From: Cylindrotheca closterium
Taxonomy: Eukaryota > Bacillariophyta > Bacillariophyceae > Bacillariales > Bacillariaceae
NCBI GenBank assembly: GCA_933822405.4
Contig: CAKOGP040000335.1
Location: forward strand, 1-64,000
Direction: 5' to 3'
DNA length: 64,000 nt
Positions 9,598 to 37,785 of this stretch are shown piece by piece (the first letter of the stretch is position 1; every line of letters begins with the position of its first letter). A model generated the notes under the pieces. It was not told the origin of the DNA, did no database searches, and saw nothing but the letters and a program-made list of their open reading frames with translations. The translations under genes and the position numbers were made by a program.

Positions 9598-10491
9598 ATG
9601 AGCCTTCAATGTCTAAAGCACAATACCAGACAATCGGTAGCCAGCCTGAGATGCATTTCGTCGATCACCAAGAGAGAAACTCCAAGCAAACTTTTTCCGG
9701 AGAAGAGGATGCATCCATCGCATTTGAAGGGAACAAGAAACATAATTCGCCGCTTCTCTGAAAACGGGATACCATCAGAACTTGAACAAGCGGTGGCAGA
9801 GCAACAGATGATTATTCGCCATTCAAAAGCAGACTCTGTCGTAAGCCTCAATGTAGGAGGGAAAGATTTTGTTACCCTCAGATCAACTCTCCAGATTAAT
9901 CCCGTCTTGTATGACCGAGTGTTGAGGGCCGAAGCCAATAATGAGCTTATCAAGGGTGCTGTCTTTGTCGATAGGGATCCTACGCACTTTGGATCCATAC
10001 TTCAGCATTTGCGAAATGTTGCAGACAGCATCACGCTGTCTAGTGCAAAGAATCGAAATGCATGGTTAAATCGTTTCAGTTCTCCCAGGACTGAGGTTAA
10101 CATTCAAATCCCTGGAGATACTGCAAAACTGAGAGAGCTTTTTATCGAAGCACGGTATTTCAAAATTAAAGAATTGGAAGACGTCGTTTCGGGATACGAT
10201 TGGTGGTCTTGGCTGGCGAGCTTGTTGAATGGAGGGGCAACCAACCCGTTCCATTCGGCATTGCAAGCTGTGAAAATTGCGAGGCGAACGTTGCTAACCA
10301 CTGGTGGTTTGGGTATTTTGATCGGCGCTCAAAATGAGGCACTTTGGAGTGAGGTAACTGCAGCTGCGAAGACCGCGTATGCTTGGATCACGAGTAGAGC
10401 TCCTTCAATAGAGAGTGGCTGGTTTTCCTCAAGTGCGGACCAGGATCCAGAACCGAAACCGAAAATGAGCTGGTTTGGGAGAGCGGAGTAG
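9598..10491 (+). CDS. BTB/POZ (potassium-channel T1-type) domain protein
   Basis: Single exon, 297 residues from the ATG at 9598; an in-frame TTG upstream is not used. Residues about 80-145 match the T1-type BTB fold: VVSLNVGGKDFVTLRSTL, a DRVLRAE helix and the FVDRDPTHFGSILQHLRN block. This is the KCTD-type tetramerisation module, here without channel segments. The N-terminal 55 residues are basic and amphipathic (SLQCLKHNTRQSVASLRC) and could be a mitochondrial presequence. A glycine-rich hydrophobic stretch (TTGGLGILIG) near residue 240 might be a short membrane segment. KCTD proteins usually bring substrates to cullin-3, but the partner here is unknown. Confidence 0.75.
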   Translation: MSLQCLKHNTRQSVASLRCISSITKRETPSKLFPEKRMHPSHLKGTRNIIRRFSENGIPSELEQAVAEQQMIIRHSKADSVVSLNVGGKDFVTLRSTLQINPVLYDRVLRAEANNELIKGAVFVDRDPTHFGSILQHLRNVADSITLSSAKNRNAWLNRFSSPRTEVNIQIPGDTAKLRELFIEARYFKIKELEDVVSGYDWWSWLASLLNGGATNPFHSALQAVKIARRTLLTTGGLGILIGAQNEALWSEVTAAAKTAYAWITSRAPSIESGWFSSSADQDPEPKPKMSWFGRAE

Positions 10492-10658
10492 TGCCAACGA
10501 GCATGGCGACGAAAATCCTGTATTCTAGATATCCCAACACTTCGGATTCTATCAAGCGCGACGGCTACTCTTGGGCTGTCCAATGCACAGTGCAGGCGAT
10601 GGACGATGGACAGATCGTCAACTAGAGCTTCAAGCATTGGCATTCAAGTACATATTAT

Positions 10659-11666
10659 TTACAGGCTCTCTAGATTTTCTGTGAAGTCGTCCATCACTGC
10701 CTTAACAGTCTCGACCATCTTGCTACCATTATAGTCCTTCATTACTGCTGTTGCACCGTACTTAACGAGCTCCTTCGCAACAAGCTTTTCATGTTCATCA
10801 ATATCCTTTTTACTTGCTTCTGAAGATGCCTCCAAGTATTGATTAGCAACGCTAACCAACCCGAATTTTGCTCGCAAGTTTGTGCCATCCAATTCCAACG
10901 CTTGGGCCATATGTTTCCTTGCTAGCAAAAGATTTTCTAGCCCCCCCAAGGTCGCATAGACTTCAGCCAGTTGCATGTGAATGTCTGAATCCAATGGACA
11001 GCCAAGAACGACCTGCTCGAGTGCATAAGCTGCACCTTTGAAGTCAGCAATTGAAAGTCGTAATTTCACCATTTCGTACCACCCGCTAACATCGGACAGC
11101 TGCTGTCCCAAATATTCATCCAACGCTGCAATGACTTCAGAAGGTTCTTTTCTCTGAGCTCGTGCGATGCAGTATTTGCGCTGTAGTGCTACCAGATTAG
11201 CAGGGTTGTCTGCCAGCAATTGATCATAAATAGCGTTTGCTCCATCGAAATCAGCCGAAGCCTCCAAGCACCGCGCTAGCAAACATCGAAATCGTGTCGA
11301 CTCTTTTCCAACTTTATCCTTTAGCTGACTGAGACACCCTTCGGCGAGGTCATGGTTGCTCAGGTCCAAAGCAGCCAAGCAAACTTGTTCCAAGACTGCC
11401 AACCGAGCAGCATCGTCACCAAGATTTCCTGAAAGCTTTGTGCCTAAGAGGCTTTGTCCGTGAGTGATTACCAGGGATGGCTCGCGAAGTTCATGTACCC
11501 GAATATATCTCAAGACCTCGAGATGGTCTTTGCGAGCAATTAAGGTCGGAAGGTCTTCATTGGGACCGAGCATCTTCACTGGTTTTGTTGTCCAACAGCA
11601 GCATTTTGAAACGAACATGGTCAATTTGACGCGCACAACACGTGCGATTTTATCGTCTTGCTTCAT
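10659..11666 (-). CDS. EMC2: ER membrane protein complex subunit 2 (EMC2)
   Basis: One exon, 335 residues. EMC2 is a soluble TPR subunit that caps the cytosolic face of the ER membrane complex, which inserts tail-anchored and multipass proteins. The protein is all-helical with TPR spacing. Diagnostic blocks are FDGANAIYDQLLADNPANLVA, YCIARAQRKEPSEVIAALDEYL, DVSGWYEMVKLRL and FKGAAYALEQVVL followed by QLAEVYATLGG and ARKHMAQALELDGTNLRA, the usual order in EMC2. Length is near that of animal EMC2 (about 300). The methionine at residue 32 (MLGPNEDLP) could be the true start, because the first 31 residues look unlike the family. It converges on the BTB gene with 167 bp between them. Confidence 0.88.
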   Translation of the reverse strand: MKQDDKIARVVRVKLTMFVSKCCCWTTKPVKMLGPNEDLPTLIARKDHLEVLRYIRVHELREPSLVITHGQSLLGTKLSGNLGDDAARLAVLEQVCLAALDLSNHDLAEGCLSQLKDKVGKESTRFRCLLARCLEASADFDGANAIYDQLLADNPANLVALQRKYCIARAQRKEPSEVIAALDEYLGQQLSDVSGWYEMVKLRLSIADFKGAAYALEQVVLGCPLDSDIHMQLAEVYATLGGLENLLLARKHMAQALELDGTNLRAKFGLVSVANQYLEASSEASKKDIDEHEKLVAKELVKYGATAVMKDYNGSKMVETVKAVMDDFTENLESL

Positions 11667-22168: not shown

Positions 22169-25100
22169 TTAGAGTTCAGTCAATGGGGCAAAGCGGTTGG
22201 ACGTTGGCGTATGGAAATAGGCTGGACGGACACGGCGGTGATGTTTGCCCGGGTGGTGTTTGGTGACGTAATCGCTAAGATTCAAGGAGCCTTTGGTCCA
22301 GTAGACATGGAAGTGGCCTTGGCGGACGCGATCGCGGATCCAGAAGAAGCGCATGTCCATGGCCTTGGAGCGTTTTTGTTTGATAGAGTCGTTGGCAATG
22401 CCGTTGGCGGTGGCATTGTCAGTTGTTAGGGGAGTGGGCCCTTGTGGATGCCCAAGTTCTGCAAGGGTAACACGTTCAGGGATGGCCTCTTGGCCATTGA
22501 TGAAGAGGCCTGCAAGTTCAGCTTCAGCAGCACTTGCCAGGACGTTCTTGAGAATTTTGCATGGGACGGAAATGGCACCATTTCGCGGAGGCGGTGTGAT
22601 GTTTTTGAGGTCCGTTGGAGCAGGGCCCAGGTAGTGGTATCCTGCGGCACGGGAGCGTGCTTTGGATTCGGAGAGGTAGGAGGCATCGCTCTCGATGTAC
22701 AGATGCATACCACTGGCATAGAAGCGAACCTTGGCGTCAGGGTTGGAAGCGGCATAATTCAAAAACTGGGTGACTGCTTTCATTGTGTTGACCGTTGGTT
22801 GTGCTTGTTGGGCAGCGATGGTGCCAAGGGCAGGTAGCATGGAGAGATCGATTGCTCTGCCATAATAGAGGAAGGTTCCAACCACCTCAGAGATGGTCGT
22901 TTGGTCCTTGACGTCTAAAAATGGGGAATCGTCGGTGGTAGCAAATTGCTGGCGAGATCCGTAGACCGGAGCAATCCAGGCGTGAGGAGAGGATTCATGG
23001 CGTGTGGGAGCTGGGTGAGTGAAGCGTTGTAGGGCGCGTTCGACATAACCAGGCATGGATATATCAACGGTGCCATTTTCATAGTCCCAATCGATCTGCA
23101 TGCCGATGTAGCGGGACCCGGTCCAGTCAACCGATGTTTTGTATTTTCCTTGGAGGACGGTAATGAGTCGTTCAATGTTGGACTTGGCAGTGTAGCGAAC
23201 ACCAAAGTCGTCGACAACCAGGGAGAACATGAGGTCGGACGTGGTGTCTTTCCAGAGTCCCGCGGTTTGTTCACATGGGATGAATCCGTGGGGTTTGAGG
23301 TATTGGCGGAGATCATCGTTGGCAAGTTTGCCCGCTTGGGGAAGCCCGTACATGCCCTTCTTGACTTTGCAGTAAACAAAGCCTTTGTGGATCTTGTCAT
23401 GGAGGTGGTATAGGTCAATTATCTTTTTGGATAGTACGCTGACAGGGATGCGGACATATTCGGGTTCCGGGAGATCGGTCTCAAGGTAGAAGTCCTTGAG
23501 ATCAATGGTGGCGAAGCGGGCGCCTGGGGTGCTGATGGTGCTGTTGAGAAGGATCTTGATGGTTTGGATGTCGGCAGTTTTGGTGGTCTTGTTACCAAGG
23601 TAGACGATCTTGTCGCCGCCCAATGTGTATCGGACGCGGTGGACTTGGGCCTTTTCTGGGCGATCGGCACATACAATGCGAACATATGTGACAACTTTGT
23701 CTTTGGGGATGTCACGGCGGTGAATGAATTCCAGGGTTTGTGTTCCTGTAGGCATGTGGGATTTTGGTCCGAGTCCAGTGCACATGCGTCCCATTTCTTC
23801 ATCGTTGGCGTCGCTCCATTCGTGGCCGGCTGACGACTTGAGGAGCTCAGGGTATTCGGCCACTTTGCCTGTGTCAGGATTGATGGCTGTGCCATGGAGG
23901 CAGTAGTGGGGGTCAGTTAGAGGGGTGAAGCTACTTGCATTGGCTTGGACGGATTTCTTGTAGGTTGGTTTGGTGGTACGAGTGCTGCGACGTTTGGGTG
24001 CTAGGACCATGGGTTTGGAACGTGGTGCTGTTTGTTGCATGTTTTGTTTGGTCTGGTTGGTGAGTCGTCGTGCTTTTCGTTTTGTGGCTCTGACTGCGGG
24101 GCTTGTGAGGGCACCGTATGTTGGAGTTGGCCAACTTTCTTTGGGAAATAGTCGAGGCGTGGTGGCAATAGCAGGGTCATTGGCTGGTGGCTTCCACTGG
24201 ACAGTTTTGGGTGTTGTAGGTTCAATGTCTGGTGGAATGAGTGTGGGTGCATTGGTGGGGGCATCGGCCCGATTGTCATTGTTGGGGACGGGTCGGATGG
24301 AATGGGTGTCGTCCTGTAGATCATGGTGTTTTAAGGCAGGTGGAGGGGACGACACTGGAATAGGGAGCTGGGTTGCAGGTGCGGTAGTGGTTTGGTTTTC
24401 CTTCGGCACCCTTAGAAGTGGCGCAGGAGGTTCCCGTGGTAGTTGAACGTTTTCGATCACTTCAACGAGTTGGCGTAATGCTTCTGTCATTGAATCACTG
24501 CGGGGAGCAATGGGAGTACGTGGGCTGGGATGAAGTAGGGCATGCTTGATATCTTGTAGGGCTGACATAATGATGGCGTTGGAGGAGCTGTCAGGCATGC
24601 GGACTTTTGTGGGGAACCAGGTGACAGTGTCGCAGATGCGAATAGCGCGAGTGTCGTAAATCCAGATGCGGTAGCACCGGTAGGAATCCATGGCTGGACC
24701 GACATACCATCCGTCGAGACCATGTGGCGCCCAGGTTTGTCGTGTAGCAGGTTTTTCGTGTGCAAGGACGCGACATCCCGGGGGGCCCATTGGCGTTCTG
24801 TTGTAGTCGAACTGTCCACAAATTTGAGCGTACGCCGAGAGCTTGGGATTTAGTCGAGAGGCGCGCATCAAATTCAATGTGATTTCAGCTTGCGGAAGGA
24901 TCTGGTCCCACAGGTGGATGGGGAAATCTTTATCAGTGCTGCACAGGCCGGCGATGAAGTGGTTTTGGAAGGTGCGGATGGCTCGTTCGGCTGAGTTGCG
25001 ACGGTGCATTCCAGGAGGAACTAATTGGAAGTCGATTTCAGATGCGTGGAGAAAATTCTTGAGGATAGTGGAACATTCGTTGTCAAGTCGTTGCAGTTGT

Positions 25101-26113
25101 GGTTTGAGCCCTGCTAGGCATAGTCGTTGATGGAGGCGCTGATAGGCTTTGAGGATGGTGGCGGCTTGACGGTTGGGGAATGGCTCGGCAAAAATGTGGT
25201 TGCTGTCATAGTCGTATAGGATCATAATGTAGTTGTTGCCAGTTGATGATGGTGAGACAAATTTTCCGGTTTGATCAGTGTAGACTTGGCCCGTAGCTGC
25301 GAAGAATGTAGCATAGCATTGATGTGTGCGTGCAGTGATGTGGTTTGGTTGGAGGTCATCATCTTCGGCATGGATTGGTGGGTTGGTGTCGTCATTGGGA
25401 ATGATCGTTGGTTTGGTTTTTGTGGATCGGAGGTTCTGTCTGGTCTGGTCTTGGTGTCCTTTGGCCGTGGCAATAGATTGGGGTGGGTTGCGTCGGAGAC
25501 CGGCCGTAGTTAATCCTGGAAAGTTTGTCAGGAAGTTATTGCGGAGAGCAAATTCGATTCTCGAGAGGACTGGAGAGAATAGAGTGGCATGGGCATAGGC
25601 GATGAGATCAGCTTCAGTTGGGTCGCCAATTTTGTTAGCGGAGTGGATCTGGATCTGGGCAGGCCCGGTAGCCTGTGATGGTATGTGCCACAGGTTGCTT
25701 GCTGGGTCGCGCTGGCCTTGTAGGACGACTTGATTGGATTGGCTGTCGATAATTTGGACATCTGCGTTGGTGAAGAGAACTTGGTATCCAGCGTGGCAGA
25801 GGCTGGCGACCGAGATCAGTGTGGCAGCAAGGGAAGGGACTATATGGCCTTGTCGTGCGTGAGGGCGAAGCATGGGCAAGTCCAGATCGGCGGTATGGGT
25901 TGAGTGAATGATGCTTCGATCGGCGAGTGCCACAGCAATGGGGTTGGTTGCAAGTTGTTTGTTGGTAGTTCTGCTGTTGGTAGCAATGAAGGTGGCAGTG
26001 GCTCCGGAGTCGATGATTGCGGGGGGACCGGAAGTTGTTGTAGTAGTTGTAGGGGTGGTAGGTTGACCTAGTGTTTTAGCTACAAGTCTATTAGCTTTCG
26101 GCTCCCCGCGTCC
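22169..26113 (-). CDS. pol: Copia Pol polyprotein (protease, integrase, reverse transcriptase, RNase H)
   Basis: Open for 1314 codons from just after the UGA that ends Gag; no ATG starts it, so expression probably depends on fusion to Gag. The protease site AIIDSGATATF lies near codon 35. The integrase core carries TDQTGKF, LDNECS and NSAERAIRTFQNHF, supplying the D, D and E residues. The reverse transcriptase has GMYGLPQAGKLAND and the catalytic SLVVDDFGVRY. RNase H contains YIESDASYLSESKARSRAAG and ends after LSDYVTKHH. No internal stop or frameshift is seen. This is a plain Copia Pol and probably supports transposition if read-through of the UGA occurs. Confidence 0.92.
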   Translation of the reverse strand, partial: GRGEPKANRLVAKTLGQPTTPTTTTTTSGPPAIIDSGATATFIATNSRTTNKQLATNPIAVALADRSIIHSTHTADLDLPMLRPHARQGHIVPSLAATLISVASLCHAGYQVLFTNADVQIIDSQSNQVVLQGQRDPASNLWHIPSQATGPAQIQIHSANKIGDPTEADLIAYAHATLFSPVLSRIEFALRNNFLTNFPGLTTAGLRRNPPQSIATAKGHQDQTRQNLRSTKTKPTIIPNDDTNPPIHAEDDDLQPNHITARTHQCYATFFAATGQVYTDQTGKFVSPSSTGNNYIMILYDYDSNHIFAEPFPNRQAATILKAYQRLHQRLCLAGLKPQLQRLDNECSTILKNFLHASEIDFQLVPPGMHRRNSAERAIRTFQNHFIAGLCSTDKDFPIHLWDQILPQAEITLNLMRASRLNPKLSAYAQICGQFDYNRTPMGPPGCRVLAHEKPATRQTWAPHGLDGWYVGPAMDSYRCYRIWIYDTRAIRICDTVTWFPTKVRMPDSSSNAIIMSALQDIKHALLHPSPRTPIAPRSDSMTEALRQLVEVIENVQLPREPPAPLLRVPKENQTTTAPATQLPIPVSSPPPALKHHDLQDDTHSIRPVPNNDNRADAPTNAPTLIPPDIEPTTPKTVQWKPPANDPAIATTPRLFPKESWPTPTYGALTSPAVRATKRKARRLTNQTKQNMQQTAPRSKPMVLAPKRRSTRTTKPTYKKSVQANASSFTPLTDPHYCLHGTAINPDTGKVAEYPELLKSSAGHEWSDANDEEMGRMCTGLGPKSHMPTGTQTLEFIHRRDIPKDKVVTYVRIVCADRPEKAQVHRVRYTLGGDKIVYLGNKTTKTADIQTIKILLNSTISTPGARFATIDLKDFYLETDLPEPEYVRIPVSVLSKKIIDLYHLHDKIHKGFVYCKVKKGMYGLPQAGKLANDDLRQYLKPHGFIPCEQTAGLWKDTTSDLMFSLVVDDFGVRYTAKSNIERLITVLQGKYKTSVDWTGSRYIGMQIDWDYENGTVDISMPGYVERALQRFTHPAPTRHESSPHAWIAPVYGSRQQFATTDDSPFLDVKDQTTISEVVGTFLYYGRAIDLSMLPALGTIAAQQAQPTVNTMKAVTQFLNYAASNPDAKVRFYASGMHLYIESDASYLSESKARSRAAGYHYLGPAPTDLKNITPPPRNGAISVPCKILKNVLASAAEAELAGLFINGQEAIPERVTLAELGHPQGPTPLTTDNATANGIANDSIKQKRSKAMDMRFFWIRDRVRQGHFHVYWTKGSLNLSDYVTKHHPGKHHRRVRPAYFHTPTSNRFAPLTEL

Positions 26114-26131
26114 TCAAGTGGAAGCGGGTCG
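26102..26131 (-). promoter_or_regulatory. Predicted hairpin enclosing the gag/pol UGA codon
   Basis: On the element strand CCCGC pairs with GCGGG, followed by an inner TCC/GGA pairing across a one-base mismatch, leaving the six-base loop ACTTGA with the UGA in it. It could influence read-through, but it is a hand-drawn structure without energy calculation. Confidence 0.4.
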
Positions 26132-27274
26132 AGTCTCGCCGTCGTTGGTGCTTTGTTGGTAGCGGTTGGTACGGTTGGTGAGTGTATCGAATGAGGTGCT
26201 GCCGCCGTATCGGCGGTATATGGTGGCTTGCTTCATATGGCCTTCTGTTGGTTCAGTGCAATTCTTGCTGGTGTGGTTGGCTTTGCCTTTTGTGAGACCA
26301 TGGGTCCAGCAATATAAGAATTCGGGCTTTGCTTTTTGTTGTTGGGACGGTGGTGTGGCATTAGCATTGTTGCAACGGTGGCATAGGGGTGGTGGGGTAT
26401 TCTCGTTGTTGGCTGGGTTGGTATGTGGCGTCAGGACAGGGGTGCCAGTGGCTGTGTAGAGTACATGGTTGGCGCCATGGAAGCCAGCTTGCTTTGCAGT
26501 TTTGAGACCTTCAAGGCGCGCTTCTTCGTAGAGGAGGAAGTGGGGTTCGAAGTTGGTCCAAGTGCGGTCGGTGAGTGCTTTGGTGTCCCAGGTTAAGATG
26601 GCCTGTCCGTAGACTCCAGCTCCTTCGAATGCACTGCGGCACAATGTGACAGTCGCGTCGTCAGAGATGGCAGATCCATTTCTGGTGGCAATGGCACGGA
26701 CTTGAGTGACTTTGTTGAAGAAGTGTTCAATAGGTTGGTCCGGATTCCATTTCTCCTTGAGGCGATCACGGTTGGCTTCCAATTCGGCGGGTTTCATGGT
26801 GCCGTATTTGGTCTGGAGGTGTGTGAACATGGTCAAGGTGGAAATGTTGGCATAGCCCATGTGTTGATCCTTGAGCGATGCAATGTAGATGTCGTCAACG
26901 GCTCCGATTAGTAGTTGTTTTAAACTATTGACCAATGTGATGTAGGTGGTATAGGTGCGGAGGTTATTTTCGTAGGCTCGGTTGTTGTTGGTGATTTGGA
27001 CTGCAGTTTCATTGGTTGGGACCGGTGGATCGCCTGGATGGATTGGGGAGTTGAAGGCGATAGGTTGGTTGCTGTAGGTTAGGTAGTCGGGCGCCGTGGT
27101 GACTGCTCCAAGTAGTCCATGAGCGCCGCCGCCAGAGGTGGAGGGTACGGACATCGCGTTGGCGAACATTTCTTGGCGGAGTGTGGTGATGGCTTCGACT
27201 GTTGGTTTTCCGATGATTTTGGTGAATTCCTTGTGAGGGAAGCTGGGATGGGAGGAGACATCGGTGGAGGTCAT
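26114..27274 (-). CDS. gag: Copia Gag protein
   Basis: 386 residues from an ATG at 27274 to a UGA at 26114-26116. Gag forms the virus-like particle that packages element RNA. The middle is the UBN2-like helical region typical of Copia Gag (LKQLLIGAVDDIYIASLKDQ, then LKEKWNPDQPIEHFFNKV). Near the C-terminus are CHRCN and, further on, YCWTHG...NHTSKNC, which form zinc-knuckle-like cysteine/histidine clusters for RNA binding. The frame continues without shift into Pol after the stop codon. Confidence 0.9.
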   Translation of the reverse strand: MTSTDVSSHPSFPHKEFTKIIGKPTVEAITTLRQEMFANAMSVPSTSGGGAHGLLGAVTTAPDYLTYSNQPIAFNSPIHPGDPPVPTNETAVQITNNNRAYENNLRTYTTYITLVNSLKQLLIGAVDDIYIASLKDQHMGYANISTLTMFTHLQTKYGTMKPAELEANRDRLKEKWNPDQPIEHFFNKVTQVRAIATRNGSAISDDATVTLCRSAFEGAGVYGQAILTWDTKALTDRTWTNFEPHFLLYEEARLEGLKTAKQAGFHGANHVLYTATGTPVLTPHTNPANNENTPPPLCHRCNNANATPPSQQQKAKPEFLYCWTHGLTKGKANHTSKNCTEPTEGHMKQATIYRRYGGSTSFDTLTNRTNRYQQSTNDGETRPAST

Positions 27275-27311
27275 GGTGTTAGTGGTCGGCGGATGCCGGG
27301 TGCTTGAAAAG

Positions 27312-27323
27312 ATCTAGCAATAC
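27312..27323 (-). other. Candidate primer-binding site, complementary to the element's own LTR
   Basis: Immediately inside the 5' LTR the element strand reads GTATTGCTAGAT. The same strand carries the exact reverse complement, ATCTAGCAATAC, 36 nt upstream within the LTR (27360-27371). The site does not resemble the usual initiator-methionine tRNA complement (TGGTATCAGAGC). Self-priming or a half-tRNA primer are the options. Confidence 0.5.
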
Positions 27324-35975: not shown

Positions 35976-37525
35976 TTACAGCTCTGCTTCGGAATTATCT
36001 GAACAGACATTGCAACTCTTCTTGCAGTGAATGAGCATATAGTCAGAATTTCTATTGCATTCATTTGTGTCCCATGCTACCCACTCACTACATTTTTCAG
36101 AATAATCCTCGCAAGCTTGTTGTTTTGGTTGGAAAAGAAAAGATTCACCAGATGGCGCTATCCAATAGCCGTCCTTCCCAGGGCCACTCCATTTCTTCGT
36201 CCACTTAGTCTGGCACCAACCATTAGGGCAGGAGGGTTCTTCAAAAGTCGTCCCATGCATTACAATGGGGGCCTCATGATGTGTTTTTGGCTGAAAGGTG
36301 ACGAAACAACAGTCAGGAATGCTGACATAAATGGTGGCAGACCTCCCACTCCCTCACTTACATCGTCTTGCCAGTGATTTGGAAGTGCCCAAACTTTCTC
36401 TCTGTCATTGAAAGTTTCTTTGTAGCCATATTTCGGATAATAATGAACAAAAACAGAAGAGTACCAGCTGCCGTGAAATGTGTGTGGTCTACCATGGAAG
36501 CACTTAGAAGACTCATAAAACAACATATCCCCGCTTTTCAAAATTACTTCATGGGTTGTTCCATGGTAGTCTTCAATCTGCAAACATTCTCGACAAATGA
36601 GTTGTTGACGAATACCTAACTGATACTTTGACGACGATACGTACGTACCAAGATTGGCCTGCCAAACATTCTCGACAAGTGAGTCGTTGGCGAATGCCCA
36701 AGCGACAATTTGAATGCGATACGTACCACGGTTCTGCGTCCTCGCTCGAATCGATGTGCAGAATGAAACTAATCACGTGGGTCTCTGGTTTATCGACATG
36801 CATATACAAATTTGACTGGTTACGATACAAGCGAAATCTGTGTGACTCGTCAGGACGCAACTCCACTGGCAGCCATCCAAACAACTCCGAACGAAGGCTC
36901 TTACCCATAGGCGATCTCAGGGGTCAGCTCCATGTTACTCCAAGCCTCAGGAAAATGTTGGAGCTCCTTTAGCACTCTAGTCATCAAATCTGGTCTGTCA
37001 ATGAACCATGGTCTTTTGCCAGCAATGGCTGGGTAGTGCGCCTCTTCTCTTGGGCCTGTGCAGAGCAGTGCAATGCATTGCATTCCAGTGCAGACCATGA
37101 GTGAAAAAATGTTCAAAGCAAAGTAATATTCCAAACGAATACAGCTGTATTTCCTAACAAAGTCACTTGAACCTACCTGCCTTGAGGCCATCATAGATGC
37201 CCTGTCTTAAGGCGTCCATAAGATCGTCTGGAGCCCGTGCAAGTCCAAAGCCATGTTCTGTAAAATTTGGTTGGACAATGGATGCACTCAATGTCTGAAC
37301 GTATGCTTCGAAGCGACTAGATTTGTCTTCCATCTCTTCGACCTGTCGAAGACGATGTTCGAATAGTTTCTTCCAGCCTGGAGTGTTTGGCTTGTAGTCC
37401 GAATCACTTGGTGGCCATTGATACCCTCGTTCCAACCGAGCTGCGATTCTTTCTTCCTCTGTTTCAGAGCACACATACTGTGGCAAGGTGAAGGCACATA
37501 GCCATAAGAGGGACGTTATTTTCAT
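35976..37525 (-). CDS. Secretory 2-oxoglutarate/Fe(II) prolyl hydroxylase with C-terminal ShK domain
   Basis: Six exons: 37177-37525, 36905-37055, 36727-36837, a 10-nt microexon 36649-36658, 36362-36577 and 35976-36290; all phases agree, giving 383 residues. A signal peptide (MKITSLLWLCAFTLPQYVCS) sends it to the ER. The hydroxylase core is spread over exons 3-5: LYMHVDKPETHVISFILHID holds the HxD iron ligands, and LFYESSKCFHGRPHTF holds the distal histidine. The microexon and its borders encode EPWPILIEDYHG, the strand between them. The last exon has six cysteines in ShK spacing (CEDYSEKCSEW...CNRNSDYMLIHCKKSC). Such proteins hydroxylate prolines in secreted proteins; the substrate is unknown. 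The two introns around the microexon are copies of each other. Confidence 0.85.
36578..36726 (-). repeat. Duplicated intron pair flanking a 10-nt microexon
   Basis: The introns at 36659-36726 (68 nt) and 36578-36648 (71 nt) both begin GTACGT, share ATTCG(C/T)CAAC, ACTC/AACTCA and TTGTCGAGAATGTTTG, and end GCAG. By hand alignment roughly four of five positions match. Between them lies GCCAATCTTG (36649-36658). Confidence 0.85.
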
Positions 37526-37654: not shown

Positions 37655-37698
37655 CAACCAACCCTAACCTCACCCTAACCCCAGTCCCAACCCTAACT
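37655..37698. repeat. Interstitial telomere-like CCCTAA repeats
   Basis: Three CCCTAA words, with degenerate spacers (AACCCTAACCTCACCCTAAC and CCCAACCCTAACTGG), occur in the short space between two divergent genes. The telomeric repeat of diatoms is TTAGGG, whose complement this is. Confidence 0.65.
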
Positions 37699-37785
37699 GG
37701 ATTATTTTTTCTTAAATACGAGTATTCATTGTATTATATCACATTACGAAACAGATTATACAGTTTGAAAAAGATTGATGATTCA

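Follow-up and report, generated by a model that had tools for sequence, protein, structure and literature searches.

Two homologous introns separated by a 10-nucleotide microexon in an oxygenase-like gene of the diatom Cylindrotheca closterium

The DNA analysed here (the window) comprises the first 64 kb of contig C35 in the 47.6-Mb, 572-contig genome of Cylindrotheca closterium. A public annotated assembly of this diatom is listed in PMC12159174. The gene under study is encoded on the minus strand and consists of six exons and five introns, two of which resemble each other and enclose an exon of ten nucleotides. The features of the locus are:

35976..37525, minus strand: host gene, six exons and five introns, 383 amino acids; Fe2OG-dioxygenase-like (a name taken from relatives), with a C-terminal ShK domain
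37056..37176, minus strand: first intron of the host gene, 121 nt, no relation to the pair
36838..36904, minus strand: second intron of the host gene, 67 nt, no relation to the pair
36659..36726, minus strand: intron copy A, 68 nt, phase 2 (CCG TG^G), GTACGT...GGCAG
36649..36658, minus strand: microexon, the fourth exon, 10 nt, GCCAATCTTG (G CCA ATC TTG)
36578..36648, minus strand: intron copy B, 71 nt, phase 0 (TTG^ATT), GTACGTACGT...TGCAG
36291..36361, minus strand: last intron of the host gene, 71 nt, no relation to the pair

Upstream of the start of the host gene, at about 37655-37703, lies a cluster of CCCTAACC-like, telomere-like repeats. Farther away, minus-strand open reading frames of 1314 and 399 amino acids are found at 22169-27313; to judge by the look of such proteins, they probably belong to a Copia-like retrotransposon.

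The original prediction called the host gene a prolyl hydroxylase, a name that its sequence does not establish. Pfam detects the C-terminal ShK domain only and no oxygenase family up to an E-value of 1; the ShK domain is likewise found in 16 of 19 aligned family members. A PDB profile match (E 0.012) relates residues 174-237 of the host protein to CmnC, presumably a 2OG-Fe(II) oxygenase, and 'Fe2OG dioxygenase domain-containing' is the name that one source applies to relatives of the protein. An ER-retention-like C-terminus, -DEL, is present in 12 of the 19 aligned sequences; the host protein ends in -AEL.

Splicing of 37525-35976 with the microexon included gives a protein of 383 amino acids which is identical over its full length to a C. 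closterium protein deposited at NCBI, whose own inclusion of the microexon may stem from RNA, homology or a gene predictor. The ten nucleotides (36658-36649) complete the codon of W204 and add P205, I206 and L207. When the microexon is skipped, i.e. 36726-36578 is removed as a whole, a TGA follows directly after residue 203, and a single-intron reading of this interval is therefore excluded by the frame. Retention of one or both flanking introns results in 217, 229 or 254 residues. Since joining of the outer donor to the outer acceptor brings an immediate TGA, the enzyme appears to depend on inclusion of the microexon. The original prediction had claimed that the exon at 36649-36658 is needed and that it is flanked by introns of 68 and 71 nt; both claims hold, the introns lying exactly at 36726-36659 and 36648-36578. 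Judged by the reading frame, the conclusion that the microexon is real is sound, and its exact coordinates are confirmed. An apparent frame break near 36905, which would have pointed to a frameshift or a pseudogene, disappeared once the 67-nt intron 36904-36838 was recognised.

The residues encoded by the microexon belong to a conserved strand. Among the 19 aligned sequences W204 and P205 never vary and I206 hardly does, and a pattern test for W-P-x-x-x-[EQ]-D found the motif with an equal number of residues in 120 of 120 homologues (the best 120 of 614). One relative, P0002, has 383 amino acids and is 90% identical to the host protein; it probably derives from a transcript, as its contig of 1,241 nt could not accommodate a gene that, introns included, measures 1,550 nt.

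Copies A and B both start with GTACGT, have the 16-nt stretch TTGTCGAGAATGTTTG in common towards the 3' end and end in GCAG, as had been predicted. The further claim that they can be aligned along their length is upheld as well: from donor to acceptor 55 of 67 aligned bases are identical, and the global alignment score is 73, whereas 2000 dinucleotide shuffles reach at most 25 (mean -9.4, sd 7.3). The differences consist of 12 substitutions (8 of them transitions), a 4-nt difference at the donor, where copy B has an extra GTAC, and one 1-nt gap, and the divergence amounts to a K2P distance of 0.21. At all 8 transitions A has G/C and B has A/T, as if one copy alone had drifted. Identity is higher in the last 34 aligned bases (31/34) than in the middle, after the first 10 bases (14/23; Fisher p 0.009, with the split chosen after the data had been seen). 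CTCAC in copy A and CTCAT in copy B are presumably branch-point-like sites. No unusual folding was detected, the z-scores being -0.06 and 0.40 for the introns and -1.30 for the whole 149 nt, and a structured intron RNA was rejected for want of any such signal.

A BLAST search of the whole genome with copy A returned copy B at 81% identity over 64 nt (E 4.6e-10). Local alignment of the two copies with each other scores 69. The corresponding scores against the pair are 12 and 16 for the first intron of the host gene, 14 and 12 for the second and 12 and 14 for the last, and across the host gene's other introns and five stretches around introns of two paralogues the best scores were 12-19. On these alignments, A and B are homologous introns, one intron in two copies. 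Their exon flanks match at 1 of 10 positions downstream and 5 of 10 upstream, and both sites have TG as the two bases before the donor. The exon junctions read TG^G (A) and TG^A (B), neither of them AG^GT-like. By eye, no flush repeat indicative of a target-site duplication was seen, a 1-nt G being present at copy A only. Because the homologues are unchanged in length across the site, exon bases were neither added nor removed, and because the flanking exon bases are not duplicated, the copy was precise.

Intron positions around residues 204-207 were examined in 14 related loci of the same genome. Twelve have no intron there: C478, C389, C457, C436 (two), C57 (three), C546, C46, C1:1247218 and C556. 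The two closest paralogues, C478 and C389, read AEPWPVVIEDYHG and ADPWPIVVEDFDG. The C556 locus (L059) has a TGA in place of the conserved tryptophan codon, with one additional residue a little farther on, and is perhaps a decaying copy. The two other loci are distant paralogues with an intron in the strand. In C1:1231056 (L043) an 89-nt intron lies at TG^G of the equivalent tryptophan, which is the position and phase of A. In C340 (L060, 169900-170500) a phase 0 intron follows two codons past the equivalent tryptophan, placing it 7 nt downstream of A's position and 3 nt upstream of B's when the letters are aligned without gaps. None of the 14 loci has an intron exactly at B's position, and none has both positions occupied. 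Eleven matches spanning the site are uninterrupted by construction; C1:1231056, C340 and C556 were exposed by matches ending inside it. The introns of C1:1231056 and C340 contradict the view that related genes have an intron at neither position.

These two introns are unlike the pair in sequence, their local scores lying between 12 and 17; for the C1:1231056 intron, shuffles averaged 12.6 and 13.6 with maxima of 21 and 24. By a rough count, the chance of an exact match to A's position is about 3%, and two or more matches within the 11 sites spanning A to B would be expected in about 4% of cases; the estimate uses ten paralogue introns in a 321-nt domain, counted by hand once the result was known, and this count may be one or two introns short. 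The presence of unrelated introns of two distant paralogues within the 11-site stretch of the pair may mark an intron hot spot or a sliding intron.

In P0030, from Nitzschia sp. Nitz4, the coordinates in the name (10218-11372) span 1,155 nt, and since this length just fits 384 codons and a stop, the gene appears to be intronless. Over the core, P0030 is 70.6% identical to the host gene and 47.1% to C478, with 51.1% between C478 and the host gene; by identity it groups with the host gene rather than with C478. DNA of relatives was also sought in viral and genome contig collections, and none was found there.

With somewhat better than even confidence, we favour a splicing-linked origin in which B arose as a precise duplicate of A, the older or source intron, and came to lie 10 nt downstream of it. 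A distant paralogue has an intron at A's position and in A's phase, and insertion of the copy would have left the 10-nt exon over. As to direction and mechanism, we infer that the excised intron would most likely have re-entered the transcript by reverse splicing next to the junction it had left, with reverse transcription and partial recombination as later steps; alternatively, it may have been reverse-spliced directly into DNA. A and B would presumably be spliced out in succession, each as a short intron of its own. In favour of this origin we count the same-length strip in all 120 listed homologues, the pairing of the two copies at an E-value of about 5e-10 and the unduplicated flanks. Intron transposition is recognised by homology to an existing intron over the whole length and by insertion without duplication or deletion of exon bases, and both are seen here. 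Moreover, a precise, splice-site-exact copy within the same gene matches what transposition by reverse splicing predicts.

Against it we count that the C1:1231056 intron shows no sequence relationship to the pair, its local score of 12 being at the level of shuffles, so that the position common to it and A may be due to coincidence or repeated insertion. An old A would need several losses, as A's position is uninterrupted in C478, C389 and the Nitz4 orthologue, and since the C340 intron lies so close to B's position, the strand may simply attract introns. Furthermore, the divergence of the copies can blur a footprint, and the upstream flanks do match at half of their positions. The original prediction, that an ancestral intron had been copied into the exon 10 nt away, thus stands as regards homologous introns and a precise copy, whereas the ancestral state of one intron is, on sequence comparison, weakly supported: the recurrence of A's exact position and phase, with its roughly 3% chance of coincidence, speaks for A, and the unrelated sequence of that paralogue's intron, together with the 12 of 14 loci and the Nitzschia orthologue that are intronless here, against it. 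Two histories fit. In the first, A is of old standing and has disappeared from many gene copies, with B as its new duplicate; in the second, A arose within the Cylindrotheca lineage, at a site attracting introns, before it was copied. Under both, B is the likelier newcomer, its exact position being free of introns in all loci seen.

The main rival to reverse splicing, which remains in the field although we consider it unlikely, is copying at the level of DNA by a replication template switch, by break repair, or by tandem duplication of the intron plus 10 nt and subsequent loss of one exon copy. Such copying needs no reverse transcriptase, and the TG before both donors and the 5 of 10 matching bases upstream would suit it. 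However, a plain tandem duplication adds ten coding bases and shifts the frame, while the length is the same in 120 of 120 listed homologues, and the copy begins and ends exactly at splice sites.

Neighbouring direct repeats were scanned in 276,391 bases, namely the window and fetched loci, some of them overlapping, less 14 loci that cover the window again; this sample is 0.6% of the genome and gives no genome-wide rate. There were 52 hits, three of which were dropped for low complexity. Lags divisible by three, as in coding repeats, were found in 41 of the remaining 49. A loose GT..AG test (ends within 6 nt) is by itself passed by 10 of the 49, including the intron pair, and four of the nine others fall within one repeat block of L036. 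At about 200-860 this locus, beside a distant paralogue on C546, holds noncoding-looking repeats of TTCAACTTTCCAGTCAGTGTAAA units. The same scan of 1.5 Mb of random sequence gave 0 hits.

It is improbable that the pair represents an introner, a transposon-like mobile intron that entered two nearby sites in independent events. Aquatic species are reported to have introners more often (PMC9860276), and similarity ending at the splice sites is their hallmark. The genome searches argue otherwise. BLAST of each intron alone against the 47.6-Mb genome returned the intron itself and its sibling (E about 5e-10) and nothing else up to an E-value of 10, and a query of both introns together found its own locus only. 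As the search scores only the best first-look candidates, one candidate region having passed per intron query, very diverged intron copies may yet exist. The 33-nt core, with up to 3 mismatches allowed, occurs in the genome only at A and B. The 16-nt core has 76 genome matches with up to 2 mismatches compared with 35 for the reversed control. Among 20 of these 76 that were cut out, the GTACGT...GCAG frame is absent around the 18 lying outside the host gene; one of the 18, the single further exact match, thus lies outside any matching intron. With two copies found, against the cut-off of at least four similar introns given in PMC9860276, an introner family was rejected on copy number. Target-site duplications or terminal inverted repeats accompany many, though not all, introner families. 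The link to introner elements drawn in the original prediction is not sustained, there being two copies only, no flush target-site duplication and no unusual fold.

We give an equally low probability to a scenario in which both introns are old and were lost in most relatives, and in which their similarity was spread by gene conversion. The strand is indeed interrupted in two distant paralogues, in one exactly where A lies and in the other 3 nt short of B, and the uneven identity of the copies (31/34 in the last aligned bases, 14/23 in the middle) could reflect conversion of one part. But conversion requires prior similarity between the introns, and of the 14 related loci 12 are intronless here, as is the Nitz4 orthologue, and none has both. 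Tandem duplication of an AGGT site is dismissed, as the sites are TG^G and TG^A and no residues were added, and so is a stwintron, whose removal as a whole (36726-36578) leads to a TGA after 203 residues.

A more specific reading can be put forward tentatively, at clearly less than even confidence: the pair may be the footprint of a spliceosome that returned a just-excised intron to its own transcript near the exon junction, and the coexisting pair may be an otherwise unseen intermediate of intron sliding. If so, after loss of either copy such a pair would read as intron sliding, and the C340 paralogue, whose intron is displaced by 7 nt from A, could show the completed process. Local pairs of this kind would escape introner surveys with a minimum family size of four.

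The origin of new spliceosomal introns is an old open question, with few cases in which the source intron is visible. Precise local intron duplication of the kind proposed here is rarely caught in genomes. In C. closterium the copies lie side by side and both have to be spliced out to keep the frame, which suggests that a 10-nt exon between similar introns has been retained in a conserved enzyme. Since this exon is kept between two similar introns, splice-site pairing and the order of removal are directly testable, and close relatives can be sequenced. In the open-licence PMC literature we found nothing on microexon splicing in diatoms and no paper on introners or intron gain with diatoms in its title; among the open-licence PMC matches listed, none was by title a study of nuclear introns of C. 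closterium. According to a 2012 review, 14 unambiguous intron transpositions were on record, in two genera; the molecular process is there called unknown, reverse splicing into the same or another mRNA with partial recombination is the most discussed route, and support for reverse splicing into new sites is indirect only (PMC3443670).

Several known systems resemble the pair in part. Introners and introner-like elements, too, are introns that resemble one another only as far as the vicinity of the splice sites (PMC9860276, PMC3879977), in contrast to the present case with only two copies, where the survey keeps families of at least four introns (PMC9860276). Sister stwintrons of Hypoxylaceae are related, propagating introns for which intron duplication is discussed (PMC8469720); here, no intron lies within another, conserved coding sequence separates the two and no unusual fold is seen. 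Near intron pairs of Drosophila likewise involve two positions within conserved coding sequence, separated by less than 32 nt, but in orthologues of different species, coexistence in one gene being held very unlikely (PMC2891723), whereas A and B coexist and are related in sequence. The closest precedent comes from Oikopleura dioica, for which four same-gene pairs of nearly identical introns, out of about 75,000 introns, are described in PMC3879977. As in C. closterium, these are homologous introns in the same gene without a large family, and they were attributed to reverse splicing (PMC3879977). The present pair differs in that it occurs in a diatom, its introns lie 10 nt apart and are 82% identical, and a microexon was created between them.
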